In this document: one piece after another, positions 58,292-63,395 of the stretch
How the letters are laid out: each line of letters begins with the position of its first letter
Position numbering within the stretch: the stretch's first letter is position 1
DNA from: Halococcus salsus
Lineage (GTDB): Archaea > Halobacteriota > Halobacteria > Halobacteriales > Halococcaceae
Assembly: GCF_009900715.1 (NCBI RefSeq)
Contig: NZ_JAAAJC010000001.1
Span: 671,216-735,215 of the forward strand
Reading direction: 5' to 3'
Length of the DNA: 64,000 nucleotides
Made by a program: the position numbers and the translations under genes
Notes under the pieces: generated by a model
What the model saw: only the letters and a program-made list of their open reading frames with translations
What the model was told of the DNA's origin: nothing
Database searches by the model: none

Positions 58292-58387
58292 CGGTCGGTC
58301 CGACCGGAGCGATCGTCCAGTATCGACCGGTACAGACCGTGAGGCGAACCCGAACCTTCAAATTCGCCGAGCGGCCCCGGTGGTTGT

Positions 58388-59296
58388 ATGAGCGTCCTCC
58401 TCCGGCTGGCATCGCTGCTCGCGTTGCTGGTGGCGGGGGCGGGCCTCCGGATGGGCGGCGTGCTTGACGACCGGCGTGCCGACTGGCTCAACGACGCCGC
58501 CTACTACGTCGCGCTCCCGGCGCTGATCTTCGTCTCGACCTACTCCCGCTCGGTGAGCGAGATCCTCTCGCCCGCGCTGGTGGTCGGGGTGTTCGTCGTC
58601 TTCTTCGGGACCGTGGCGGTCGCGTTCGTCGTCCACCGTCGCCACGACGCGAGCGCCAGACGGAGCGTCGCGACGGTGCAGTCCTACCACTCGAACCTCG
58701 GCTATCTCGGCGTCCCGCTGGTCGCCGCGACGTTCAACGACCACGTCACCGCCGCCGCGAGCGCGATCCTCGGGATGGTCTCGCTGGTGCAGATCCCGCT
58801 GACGGTGTTCGTCCTCTCGTCGATCAACGGGGCCGACACCACGCTTCGGCACGAGGTCCGTCGGATCCTCACCACGCCAGTGCTGATCGCGCTGGTCGCC
58901 GGTCTCGGCGTCGGCTCGCTCGGGATCCCGGTTCCCGGTACGGTCGCCGGCGGGCTCGACCTCCTCGGCCAGTTCGCGCTCCCGCTGGCGTTGCTGTGTG
59001 TCGGCTCGTCGCTCGAGATCGACCTTCCGGCGGTGGACGTCGGCGCGGTCGCCGGGGTCGTCGGCCTCAAGATACTCCTGATGCCGGCGCTCGCGTGGGC
59101 GGTCTTCTCGACCCTCCACGCCGACACCGCGACGTTCACCGCCGGCGTCGTGATGTTCGCGACCCCTACGGCGGTCTCGACGTTCGTCTTCGCCAACGAG
59201 CTCGGCGGCGACGAGGCGTTCGCCTCGCTCAACGTCTTCCTCACCACGCTGATCTCCATGGGGTCGCTGTTCGTCTTCCTCACCGTGCTCGGGTGA
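58388..59296 (+). CDS. AEC (auxin efflux carrier)-family transporter
   Basis: 302 aa with about ten transmembrane segments and the two-repeat AEC layout: LNDAAYYVALPALIFVSTYS, VATVQSYHSNLGYLGVPLVA (crossing asparagine), ILTTPVLIALVAGLGVGSLG and GGLDLLGQFALPLALLCVGS. Mostly malate/organic-acid or auxin-like carriers; substrate unknown. Monocistronic. Confidence 0.9.
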   Translation: MSVLLRLASLLALLVAGAGLRMGGVLDDRRADWLNDAAYYVALPALIFVSTYSRSVSEILSPALVVGVFVVFFGTVAVAFVVHRRHDASARRSVATVQSYHSNLGYLGVPLVAATFNDHVTAAASAILGMVSLVQIPLTVFVLSSINGADTTLRHEVRRILTTPVLIALVAGLGVGSLGIPVPGTVAGGLDLLGQFALPLALLCVGSSLEIDLPAVDVGAVAGVVGLKILLMPALAWAVFSTLHADTATFTAGVVMFATPTAVSTFVFANELGGDEAFASLNVFLTTLISMGSLFVFLTVLG

Positions 59297-59359
59297 AATA
59301 GCCAGATCTGTCAGCTCGTGTTCGTTCGTGGACCTGTCACGCTATCGCGTCCCGCAGTA

Positions 59360-59368
59360 GTTTTATTA
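59360..59368 (+). promoter_or_regulatory. TATA box upstream of the structured region
   Basis: TTTTATTA at 59361-59368, an archetypal haloarchaeal TATA box, predicts transcription starting near 59390, 10 bases before the first hairpin. Confidence 0.55.
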
Positions 59369-59390
59369 CTGACACTCGAATCGGTCATAG

Positions 59391-59940
59391 TACGTCATCC
59401 GCCCGGCGCTGCGCCGGGCACGAGGTGACACCGACCGACGATGACCCGCATTCCACACGACTGGTGTGCTTTCGACGGCACACCCACGTCCGGCACGCCC
59501 TCGGATACCTGCCGGAACGGCAATCGCGGTTCCCCGGTGACGGGACGCGGTGGAATGCGGGCTGACTCGGTCACGGTCCACCTCGCGCAGTTCGTCCCCA
59601 CCCGGTCCGCGTAGGCCACCCGGTTTCGAACCCACGCGGCCGGTTTCTCTCGCCATCGACCGGCGAGCGAAGCCTCGAAGTGTCGGGGAGGACTGCGGCG
59701 TTCTCGCCTGCTTCCTGTCGTGACTGGGTCCCGGACCGGAGCCGCGCGGCCGTTCGGGCCGACTGTCCGATGACGGATCGGTCCCGCCCTCGACGGAGAC
59801 GGTTCCTCGACGGCGGGACGAACGCACCGCCCCGCTCGATCCGGGATCGACCCCCTGCCTCGATGTCGGGGGAGGGCTCGGTCCCTCACCAGCCCGCGAC
59901 CACGAACCGGCGACGACTCGCTGCCGGTTCGCGACGGCGC
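59391..59940 (+). ncRNA. Candidate structured RNA or long structured leader, undescribed
   Basis: No frame on either strand has protein-like composition (all Arg/Pro/Ser-rich). Perfect stems follow one another. 59401-59409/59411-59419. Domain I is a four-way junction: closing stem 59445-59456/59550-59561 (12 pairs) around hairpins 59463-59469/59478-59484, 59489-59495/59510-59516 and 59525-59534/59542-59549; outside it GTGA..CCGA (59425-59434) pairs with TCGGTCAC (59567-59574). Domain II: 59586-59599/59685-59697 (11 pairs) around 59607-59612/59634-59639 and two mutually exclusive hairpins at 59640-59667. Then 59781-59788/59812-59819 and 59903-59911/59923-59931. It may be an independent RNA or the leader of the next gene. 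RNase P and SRP signatures were not found. Confidence 0.4.
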
Positions 59941-60030
59941 AGTGGTCCCGTGAGAGGCATCGCTGTGTCGTCCGAGGGTCGCGGGCGGGTCGAGCGGGGC
60001 CGCACGAACGACGCACCCGACGGAGAATCC

Positions 60031-60309
60031 ATGCAACGAACCGACGACTCGACGCTCGAATCGAACGCGACGAACGACTGGCGCGTGGGCGCTGCCCGGC
60101 GAGCCACGGCAGCCGAGCGCCACACGAGAGCGCTGGCAGTCGTGGTCCTCACGGCCGGCCTCGGCTGGCTGGCGACGGTCGCGCTCACCGCTCCCGGCGT
60201 GGCCGCGCTGCTCGCCGCGTTCGCGTGCCTGCTGACCCTGCCGGTCGTGCTGCCCTACGTGGTCGTGCGCGCGGTCACGGCGGTCCTGCGGTATCGGGAG
60301 GGTCGGTGA
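60031..60309 (+). CDS. Small two-helix membrane protein
   Basis: 92 aa. Residues 1-33 polar (MQRTDDSTLESNATNDWRVG), hydrophobic segments about 34-58 and 62-84 (ALAVVVLTAGLGWLATVALT, LLAAFACLLTLPVVLPYVVV), basic end. ATG 60031 chosen; upstream frame is not protein-like. No own TATA within 40 bp upstream, so it may be transcribed from the 59361 box through the structured region. Family unknown. Confidence 0.65.
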   Translation: MQRTDDSTLESNATNDWRVGAARRATAAERHTRALAVVVLTAGLGWLATVALTAPGVAALLAAFACLLTLPVVLPYVVVRAVTAVLRYREGR

Positions 60310-60361
60310 GCGGCGCACCCGGCGCTCCGCCCACTACCGGGTCGAATACGGCTACTTCGGG

Positions 60362-61288
60362 TCAGCCGAGCTGTCCGCGGAGGTCGTACTCGGTGCCGGT
60401 GGCCATGAAGAGCACGTCCTCTATCACTACCATCACCTCGGGGAGCTCTCGGACCACGATCCAGGTGATGGCGACCAGCGCGACCACCGAGAGGCTCTGG
60501 GCGAGCACGCGGTCCGCGACGAAGTACGAGACCTTGTAGGGGTCGTCGGTGCCGAAGACCGTCATCACGAGGTTCGGGAAGACGTCGAACTTCTGGAGGC
60601 CGAACCCGAGCCCGATGAAGACGTTTCGGACGAGGTTCAGCCCGTAGATCACGGGGATCGAGACTGCGAGCGCGCGGAGCTTGCGCGAGAGCGGGGCGTC
60701 GGCCGCCGCGATCAGCCCCGCGAAGATCGCCATGCTGCCGATCCCGGTACACGCGATCAGGATGGTGTAGGTGATGGTGTGGCCGTCGGTGACGAACCAG
60801 AAGGTGCTGTGGTAGTCGGGGTGACCGCCGCTCGGGACCATCGTGCCCGGAACCACCGTGGGGTCGGCCCCCAGCAGCCCCATCAGGAAGGCGGTCTGGG
60901 CGGTGACGGTCTCGATCAGGAACTCCGTCAGGACCGGGATCGACTCGAACGGGAAGAAGACGACCCCCATCGCGGCGACCGCCCGCGAGAGCACGAACAG
61001 CGAATCACGGCCGCGGGCGAGCAACAGCCCCGCGTAGAGGCTCGCCGGCACCGCGACCAGCGTTCCGATCCCCTCGATGATGCTCTTCTGGACGAACGCG
61101 AAGTGATGGAACACCGAGAACCAGAACGCGGCGAAGACCACCCACCCCGCGACCGTGACGGGTCGTGCGAACCGGCTGTCGCGCCACGCGAGGAGCGCGC
61201 CGGCGACGAAGGTCAGAACCGACAGCCACGCGAGCGCGTCGGCGAACCGACCCACCCACGCGAGCGCCGAAAGCACCGCGTCGATCAT
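60362..61288 (-). CDS. artA: Archaeosortase A
   Basis: 308-aa membrane protein with about eight TM helices. The ArtA catalytic triad is intact: Cys180 in ILIACTGIGSMAIF, Arg221 in GLNLVRNVFIG, Arg260 in YFVADRVLAQ; spacing of 41 and 39 residues equals that reported for Haloferax volcanii ArtA (C173/R214/R253). It cleaves PGF-CTERM proteins and lets them receive a lipid anchor. Its substrates in this window are at 29334, 39548 and 61386. Convergent with the small membrane protein gene. Confidence 0.95.
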   Translation of the reverse strand: MIDAVLSALAWVGRFADALAWLSVLTFVAGALLAWRDSRFARPVTVAGWVVFAAFWFSVFHHFAFVQKSIIEGIGTLVAVPASLYAGLLLARGRDSLFVLSRAVAAMGVVFFPFESIPVLTEFLIETVTAQTAFLMGLLGADPTVVPGTMVPSGGHPDYHSTFWFVTDGHTITYTILIACTGIGSMAIFAGLIAAADAPLSRKLRALAVSIPVIYGLNLVRNVFIGLGFGLQKFDVFPNLVMTVFGTDDPYKVSYFVADRVLAQSLSVVALVAITWIVVRELPEVMVVIEDVLFMATGTEYDLRGQLG

Positions 61289-61385: not shown

Positions 61386-63197
61386 TCAGCGCACGCGCCA
61401 CGCGACCAGGCCCGCGACCAGCACCGCGAGAACGGCGACTACCGGGCCGAGACCGGGGCCGGTCTCGTCCGTCGTCCCGGCTCCCATCGTCGTCCCCTCT
61501 TTGTCGCCGCCAGCCGTCGTAGCCACAAGCGTCCCCGTCGCGTTCGGGGCGGTCGACGCGTTCGCGCCTGTGTCCGCGCGCTGGGTGGTCTCCACGACGG
61601 TCGCCCGCGCGCTCGCCGCCACCGGGGTTCCGTCGACGGTGTACGGGCGGTCCTGGGTCCCGTTCGCGCTCGCGAAGTCGTAGACCTGGTTCTCGTTCGA
61701 GTCGGTGTGGACCACCGCGCGTACCCGAGCGTCGTCGTCGAGCGGTTGGTCGAGCTGGACGGTCACGTTCCGGCTGGTGCCGTTCTCGAGGTAGCTCGAC
61801 ACCCCGACGAGCCGTTCGGCGGTGCCGTTCGAGGCGTTGACGACCACGAAGCCGCCGGCGGGCAGCGTCACGCTGTCGAGGCGGATCGTCTCGCCGCCGG
61901 TGGTCTGGTCGGCGAGCGACACCGCGGCGGTTCCGCCGGCGCTGTCGGTCGACTGGCTCGCCCGGACGATCGTGCTCGTACTATCGCTGGTGTTGAGCGG
62001 CCCGGTGGCCTCGACCATCACCGGCGTTCTGGCCCCGACCTGCGAGAGGTTGAACGTCGCGGCGAAGCTCCCGTTGGGCTTCACCCGTGTGGTGTTGGTC
62101 TTGACGAACGAGTCGGAGGCGTTCCGCTGGAGGCGGACCGTCACCTCGCTGCCGGGGGCGACGCTCGTCGTTCCCCGCACCGTCTGATTGGTGTCGGCCG
62201 AGAGCGAGAGCGCCCCCAACCCGAGTTCGGCCCCGACCACGGTGACGTTCGCTGAGACGGTTCGGTCGTCGCCCGCGAAGCCCTCGCTGCCGTTGAGCGT
62301 GAGCGCGGTTTCGAACTCGTCGCCCGCGGCGAGGCTCCCGTTCTCGAAGACCGCCGTGGTGGTGTTGACGTTGACGTAGAGCACGTCGTTCCCACCGTCG
62401 GGGATCACCCGTATCGAGTCGTTTTCGAGGCTCCGTGCCAGGTCGAGGCGTTTGGGCGGTCGGTTGGTCTCGGGGTTGGTCTGCACCATCGAGAAGTCGA
62501 GCGTCCCGGTCTCGACGAGCGTCGAGAAATTCGAGGCCGCGAGCACACCGTAGACCCCGGAGACGCGGAACTGGTTCACCGCGACGTCGCCGTTCGCGAC
62601 CGAGTCGGTCGTCGTGACCCGGCCGGCGTTGACCGCGGTGGCCACGTCGCGCGCGGTGGTGATGTTGTCGAAGCTCGCCGCCGGCGCGGTCCACGTCGCG
62701 AGGTCGCCGTCCGTCCGACCCATGAGCTCGAGCGACGCGGTGTCGGTCTCGCGACCGTCGACCGCGACCGAGAGGTTGTACGTGCTGACTTCGAGCGGGG
62801 CGTCGAGCGGTTCAGTGGTGCGGTTCGTCTCGGTCACGGTGTCGTTGCCGGCGCGGTAGACCTCGCTCTCGTTTTCCCCCGTCCCCGCGAGATAGGTGTT
62901 CATGCGCAGCGTGACCTGCCCGTCGCCGTCGGTGTCGTTGACCGTGACGTTGGTCGCGTAGTTGACCGCCCCGCTCCCGACCGTGACGGTCGCGCTCGTC
63001 GTCCCTGCGAGGGTCACCGGGATCGCGGCGATATCGCCGCGGTGCTCGGCGACGGTCGAGCGGTTGAAGGTCGCGGTTTCGGTCGCGTTACCGGCGTTCT
63101 GTGCGCTCGTCGGGAGGGCCATCACGCCGGCGACCGTCGCGAGAACGACCAGCGCGACGAGCGCCGCGCCGATCCGACGGCGTCGTGGGCTCGTCAC
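61386..63197 (-). CDS. PGF-CTERM-like surface glycoprotein
   Basis: 603 aa. Basic N terminus (TSPRRRRIGAALVALVVLAT) and signal peptide to about residue 33 (LPTSAQNAG). The body has Thr/Asn-rich beta domains with about 20 NxT/S sequons (e.g. NATETATFNRSTVAEHRGDI, VVVNASNGTAERL) and resembles BGTF-type surface proteins. C terminus: Thr/Gly-rich stalk, then ETGPGLGPVVAVLAVLVAGL and WRVR, a PGF-CTERM signal with PGL in place of PGF. GTG 63197 chosen by the signal; longer readings have an Arg-rich, noncoding-like start. Near artA, its likely processing enzyme. Confidence 0.85.
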   Translation of the reverse strand: MTSPRRRRIGAALVALVVLATVAGVMALPTSAQNAGNATETATFNRSTVAEHRGDIAAIPVTLAGTTSATVTVGSGAVNYATNVTVNDTDGDGQVTLRMNTYLAGTGENESEVYRAGNDTVTETNRTTEPLDAPLEVSTYNLSVAVDGRETDTASLELMGRTDGDLATWTAPAASFDNITTARDVATAVNAGRVTTTDSVANGDVAVNQFRVSGVYGVLAASNFSTLVETGTLDFSMVQTNPETNRPPKRLDLARSLENDSIRVIPDGGNDVLYVNVNTTTAVFENGSLAAGDEFETALTLNGSEGFAGDDRTVSANVTVVGAELGLGALSLSADTNQTVRGTTSVAPGSEVTVRLQRNASDSFVKTNTTRVKPNGSFAATFNLSQVGARTPVMVEATGPLNTSDSTSTIVRASQSTDSAGGTAAVSLADQTTGGETIRLDSVTLPAGGFVVVNASNGTAERLVGVSSYLENGTSRNVTVQLDQPLDDDARVRAVVHTDSNENQVYDFASANGTQDRPYTVDGTPVAASARATVVETTQRADTGANASTAPNATGTLVATTAGGDKEGTTMGAGTTDETGPGLGPVVAVLAVLVAGLVAWRVR

Positions 63198-63395
63198 GGT
63201 CGGTCCGCACGGTGACCGTCGGCGGTTCCGCGATTCGCGGCTCCCGGCTGCAGCGGCTGCTGGTCCGTGGACTGGCGATCGGGGGGCAGTCGTGGCATCA
63301 TTCGTCGGCGTCTGCCTCGAAGGAACTACCCATCTGGTAAGTGCTTTGTGGTGGGGGGAGCCGGCTCCCAAAACAGCGGACGGCGAAGCGACGGG

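Follow-up and report, generated by a model that had tools for sequence, protein, structure and literature searches.

Large structured RNAs of obscure role, among them OLE, GOLLD, and ROOL, are known from bacteria. GOLLD and ROOL are ornate RNAs from bacteria or phages and are often tied to mobile DNA; we know of no fixed small membrane-protein partner of either. In Bacillota, the genes ole and oapA lie in tandem, and the OapA protein, which binds OLE RNA, recruits it to the membrane (PMC9723947, PMC12265935). Two further kinds of structured RNA are relevant here. Long 5' leaders, such as riboswitches, ribosomal-protein leaders, and Mg2+ leaders, precede coding sequences that have a ribosome-binding site. 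In the hok-type type I toxin systems, a structured mRNA from mobile DNA encodes a small membrane protein.

Here, we describe a locus in a haloarchaeon that is comparable to each of these systems in part. The window, i.e., the whole stretch of DNA that was analysed (64,000 nt), belongs to a source genome of 3.52 Mb (G000). Within it, about 590 nt that follow a TATA-like box at 59361 are best read, from the sequence, as encoding on the + strand an RNA of a class absent from Rfam. Directly downstream is a gene for a small predicted membrane protein, orf92. Like OLE RNA, the new RNA is about 600 nt long, has an intricate conserved fold, occurs in extremophile hosts, and is encoded directly upstream of a small membrane-protein gene. 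Unlike OLE RNA, it has an archaeal host, a very narrow distribution, and no sequence or covariance match to OLE. OapA has four helices, whereas the orf92 protein has two predicted helices, with no homology by any search. Judged on these comparisons, the resemblance to OLE is one of layout only, and the RNA is not homologous. The new RNA shares with GOLLD and ROOL a large and ornate structure, but those are bacterial or phage RNAs and it has no Rfam match. Its place ahead of a coding sequence that has a ribosome-binding site, with which it probably shares a transcript, recalls long 5' leaders; in contrast to them, it is two to several times longer, its conserved core is at the far 5' end, and a ligand or switch signature was not found. 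It differs from hok-type mRNAs in that the structured RNA is wholly upstream of orf92, is far larger, and matches no family.

Comparison with known RNAs was made with Rfam 15 (4227 families) on the window and four relatives; no match reached the gathering threshold, and nothing relevant appeared even at E values up to 5-10. The same holds for the OLE covariance model in particular, and the covariance models of GOLLD, ROOL, HEARO, and raiA gave no match. A match to the Rfam core of group I or group II introns is absent. Over the whole window, the sole Rfam match is a tRNA-Thr, and none lies in the element. OLE RNA also carries a kink turn bound by an L7Ae-family protein. A candidate kink turn was seen by eye in the window at 59434-59448/59557-59571 (CGAUGA/CUGA internal loop), but the motif is not retained in G005, G003, and Haladaptatus halobius; read by eye, it is not conserved across the copies and was rejected.

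Table 1. Features of the RNA-orf92 locus and its neighbours (window coordinates).
Feature	Position	Strand	Basis or remark
dph5-artA insertion with AEC transporter gene, RNA, and orf92, ~2 kb	58292..60361	+	
AEC-type transporter gene	58388-59296		PF03547; borders the element on the upstream side
TATA-like box TTTTATTA, putative promoter of the unit	59361..59368	+	sequence
Domain I, closed multibranched, conserved	59391..59777	+	RNAalifold, pair counts
Invariant block TACGTCATCCGC at the 5' end, region of predicted transcript start	59391..59402	+	identical in 5/5 copies
P0, 5' strand CGTCATC	59393..59399	+	pairs with 59769-59775 in 5/5 copies; one G-U in G005
P1 hairpin	59401..59419	+	CCCGGC/GCCGGG in window; two-sided compensatory changes
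P2 arm	59423..59583	+	encloses 12-bp stem and hairpins P3 and P4
12-bp stem, 5' strand CCCGCATTCCAC	59445..59456	+	perfect with 59550-59561
12-bp stem, 3' strand GTGGAATGCGGG	59550..59561	+	
P5, 5' strand CGCGCAGT	59584..59591	+	pairs with 59762-59769; at least 7/8 pairs per copy, two-sided changes
Most conserved block CAGTTCGTCCC...CCGG...CGCGTAGGCCAC	59588..59619	+	
P6 arm	59607..59749	+	encloses P7 (59643-59673) and P8 (59675-59718)
P0, 3' strand GATGACG, shuts domain I	59769..59775	+	
Domain II, structured 3' part, lineage-variable	59778..59943	+	contains hairpins 59781-59819 and 59903-59931
GNRA-type 3' hairpin plus block GAGAGGCATCGCTGTG	59944..59967	+	probable 3' edge of conserved RNA
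Shine-Dalgarno-like GGAG before orf92	60022..60025	+	
orf92, 92 aa, two predicted transmembrane helices (~34-52, 56-74)	60031..60309	+	hydropathy
Archaeosortase A (artA)	60362-61288	opposite to orf92	TIGR04125; after orf92

Copies of the element are few. A DNA search of 60 related genomes returned a full copy in G007 at 88% and partial alignments in G005 and G003; the latter two proved to be full-length, the alignment spanning from the TATA box to the downstream reading frame. When plasmids were searched with the G003 copy, 97% of the query was covered at 70% on NZ_CP085341.1, a 271-kb plasmid of H. halobius, in which the flanks of this fifth copy are unrelated. The known copies (n=5) are those of G000 (the window), G007, G005, and G003, which are congeneric, and that of the plasmid; the RNA is found in four of ten congeners. 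Identity among copies in domain I is 54-91%. The plasmid copy is closest to that of G003 (74%), which points to horizontal transfer.

Wider searches support a narrow distribution. A 32-base pattern from 59588-59619 matches each of the four congeneric copies; across 391 genomes it has no other match. A covariance model, R1, covering 59424-59619 scores 190-205 bits in each of the five copies; the next best score in 391 sampled Halobacteria genomes is 29 bits, and in 441 genomes of three large families nothing passes an E value of 1e-6. Weak matches to the model in other haloarchaea (20-29 bits) are ascribed to chance, as they fall 160 bits under the true ones and most span far less than the model. 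No further copy turned up in IMG/VR, phage, or other plasmid records; pattern matches in IMG/VR were dropped because covariance and protein support were absent. A 25-nt identity between the H. halobius copy, just before orf92, and a dipeptide-transport ATPase gene in G407 (L033:6750-6774, L035:1501-1525) is probably also due to chance. The RNA is a rare element, patchily inherited.

The position of the unit varies between genomes. In G000 and G007 it occupies one and the same site, flanked by dph5 and artA. Seven congeners have only 46 to 984 bp from dph5 to artA, without the unit; the AEC gene, the RNA, and orf92 were thus gained there, or lost elsewhere. In G003, one neighbour of the unit is a MoxR-type ATPase gene and a second gene lies on its other side; the G000 sequence is collinear with both flanks, with ~397 bp and no unit in between. 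Different neighbours again surround the units of G005 and H. halobius, so that the unit occupies four unrelated positions in five genomes. The interval between the AEC-transporter and archaeosortase genes, proposed in the first-pass annotation as the place to look in relatives, is not the orthologous place, since in three of the five genomes the unit is elsewhere. Each copy retains a TATA box followed by the RNA, the Shine-Dalgarno-like site, and orf92. By this gene order, the RNA and orf92 act as one transferable unit.

Two observations concern the surroundings of the site. GC-rich palindromic repeats (CACGGGCTTCGCCCGCTCGTGCCATCCGAG, CGCTTCGCGTCTCGCGCATCC), possibly of a REP-like family, are present between dph5 and artA in several congeners (L063:517-1501, L061:1240-1501, L058:2424-2520). 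On the other side, a predicted secreted or surface protein (61386-63371; DUF7827, DUF7282) adjoins archaeosortase A, as expected of a sortase substrate.

The 5' end of the element is well marked. In four copies (those of the window, G005, G003, and H. halobius), TACGTCATCC is preceded at ~20-25 nt by a TTTATTA-type box; the TATA box of G007 and the window falls inside their conserved block. The TATA box reported earlier is present and conserved among the copies, and its spacing would place the transcript start near 59391. The RNA measures ~590 nt in the window and up to ~745 nt in relatives. No protein frame is conserved across the copies: the longest antisense frames (~213 codons) occur in the GC-rich copies only, and the H. 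halobius copy, with a G+C of 0.55 against 0.71 in the window, has 6-15 stops in every frame. By frame content, the ~590 nt after the TATA box are non-coding, as the earlier reading of the window had it.

The strength of the fold was compared with chance in several ways. The 12-bp perfect stem, confirmed base by base, had been called unlikely by chance; when the same 550 nt are dinucleotide-shuffled, 3.5% of the shuffles contain such a stem, and by itself the stem is weak evidence. The fold as a whole is stronger evidence. For 335 nt of the element, the folding z is -3.6 (0/100 shuffles as good), and for the whole 615 nt it is -7.2 (0/20 as good). The excess stability of the first 500 nt is -7.05 kcal/100 nt vs -0.44±1.67 in 62 background stretches of the window, each 500 nt long; the strongest of these overlaps the element itself.

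Comparison of the copies gives the consensus fold. RNAalifold energies were taken from an alignment anchored on conserved blocks, and pairs were counted in a second alignment of these same five sequences, made with MAFFT and without anchors. For the 5' domain, the consensus energy is 8 sd below that of column shuffles keeping conservation and gaps in four sequences, and 9.5 sd below in the three long copies. The + strand folds better than its reverse complement (-221 vs -194 kcal/mol), and G-U pairs are kept in the consensus structure. In the MAFFT alignment, 131 pairs are predicted, and 84.9% of cells overall are able to pair vs 36-42% with slid partners. Two-sided changes that keep the pair are found at 33 pairs, vs 18.8±2.6 in shuffled alignments (0/500 reach 33) and 4-12 with slid partners, in counts where structure and pairs derive from the same sequences, five copies only, two of them close. 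In a leave-one-out analysis over whole single-sequence folds, the held-out copy pairs at 64-83% vs ~40% when slid; for the changed pairs alone the significance is modest only. Whole single-sequence folds are too noisy at 800 nt for a decision. The search for orthologues with compensatory changes has thus yielded homologues with covariation, and the region almost certainly encodes a real, conserved structured RNA on the + strand, with a conserved TATA box of its own in front.

The comparison also redraws part of the structure first proposed. A closed domain at 59586-59697 turned out to be a pairing specific to the window; the comparative data favour P5 instead, and the closed unit is domain I, shut by P0. 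In the window, the outermost pair of P5 shares G59769 with P0; P5 encloses P6 together with hairpins P7 and P8. Compensation is readily seen in P1, the stem of which reads CTTGGT/ACCAAG, CTCGGC/GCCGAG, or CTTGGC/GCCAAG in relatives, and in the 12-bp stem, where G003 and H. halobius have CTACCAC/GTGGTAG in place of ATTCCAC/GTGGAAT. A supposed switch between two mutually exclusive hairpins is not upheld: one of them, CCGGT/ACCGG, exists in the window lineage only, and the overlapping CTCTCG/CGAG is conserved. The sequence GATGAC occurs twice (59440-59445 and 59769-59774), each copy being complementary to GTCATC at 59394-59399. Since H. halobius has lost the proximal GATGAC, it is P0, the distal pairing, that is conserved; in the other species, the proximal copy might form a local alternative pairing. 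Further 3', the two hairpins noted earlier in domain II do exist. In G005, G003, and H. halobius this domain exceeds that of the window by ~120 nt, and its consensus is weaker (z = -3.1 for the three long copies, -1.8 with the window added). The 3' hairpin that follows is GCCTC-GTGA-GAGGC in G005 and G003, with close variants elsewhere.

An orf92 homologue of 90-92 codons lies directly downstream of the RNA, on the same strand, in all five genomes. GGAG, AAGG, GAGG, or a similar motif precedes its ATG by 5-12 nt in every copy, and no TATA box is seen between the RNA and the gene, in line with the first-pass annotation. The orf92 proteins are 31-54% identical to the H. halobius protein and have a conserved second helix around TLPVVxPYxxVxxxT; their N-terminus is not consistently basic. 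Pfam, NCBIfam, PHROGs, and PADLOC gave no convincing family match, a Foldseek comparison of an orf92 model (pLDDT 70) with the PDB gave no match, and a search of further genome contigs and viral contigs gave no relative. A distant relative (E 1.4e-10) is present in G344 (Haladaptataceae) without this RNA, and an orf92-type protein can therefore exist without it. That relative (L020:1453-1785) has its own TATA-led untranslated stretch of ~300 nt, with no detectable kinship to the RNA. The idea that this leader is a mini version of the RNA was rejected, as the similarity is not significant (p 0.01 to 0.58) and only a short GGCATCGCTGT block is in common.

What the RNA does may be approached by weighing several explanations. 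That the fold is a chance product of GC-rich intergenic DNA, or that the element is a repeat or insertion acting at the DNA level, is very unlikely: the high G+C of the window copy and the ease with which the 12-bp stem arises in shuffles speak for it, but it is contradicted by the covariation, which together with conservation extends to the copy of 0.55 G+C, by the advantage of the + strand over its reverse complement with G-U pairs kept, and by the different behaviour of background DNA elsewhere in the window. A known RNA (RNase P, SRP, a group I or II intron, OLE, GOLLD, or ROOL) too divergent for Rfam is still less probable. Size and complexity are within range, and there is a sub-threshold, truncated RNase P match (E = 7.9); yet the results with Rfam given above apply to any copy, and RNase P and SRP RNA are universal while the new RNA is confined to a minority of its congeners.

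Of the explanations that accept a new RNA, the main rival to the reading favoured below is a structured 5' leader of exceptional length, acting in cis on orf92, for example through an ion, a metabolite, a protein, or gating of the Shine-Dalgarno site, and with no other function; it is possible, if on balance doubtful. Such a leader would agree with the constant position of the RNA directly upstream of orf92 on the same strand, with the Shine-Dalgarno-like site of a gene that has no TATA box of its own, and with the finding of no terminator-like site between the two in a scan by bacterial rules. However, ~640-790 nt for a 92-aa protein is far beyond the needs of known leaders, the 5' domain, farthest from the start codon, is best conserved while the part near orf92 is variable, and neither a conserved alternative pairing of the ribosome-binding site (GGAG) nor conservation of the proposed switch is seen. 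The unit could also be a toxin-antitoxin-like, selfish, or addiction module, in which a small membrane toxin is encoded by an mRNA with a self-inhibiting structured leader of the hok type. The patchy, mobile distribution, including a plasmid, and the small two-helix membrane protein fit this idea, which we nonetheless consider unlikely, as PADLOC and toxin families gave no match and the RNA is much larger than hok mRNA.

We put at roughly 0.5 the probability that the RNA works with its small membrane protein, orf92. In favour are the adjacency of the two in 5/5 genomes at unrelated positions and the tandem layout shared with ole and oapA; on the other side stand the small number of copies, the absence of homology with OapA, the two helices in place of four, an N-terminus that is not consistently basic, and the orf92 relative of G344 that lacks the RNA. 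In this cooperation of RNA and protein, a transcript would start near 59391 and fold into a closed 5' domain and a variable 3' domain ending in a GNRA-type hairpin. The same transcript would probably continue through the Shine-Dalgarno site into orf92. The orf92 protein may then bind the RNA and tether or organise it at the membrane as a ribonucleoprotein, as OapA does for OLE RNA. More tentatively, the two could form a horizontally mobile RNA-membrane protein particle of haloarchaea, one that would be the first large archaeal ornate RNA outside the universal housekeeping RNAs and that would have arisen independently of OLE, solving a similar membrane problem.

To our knowledge, archaea have no described large structured RNA of this sort other than RNase P and SRP RNA, and a limited literature search likewise turned up no further one. 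The element sits where standard annotation shows nothing. Haloarchaea include genetically tractable members, and a compact mobile unit of RNA and membrane protein in this group would make it possible to test independently why RNAs become associated with membranes.
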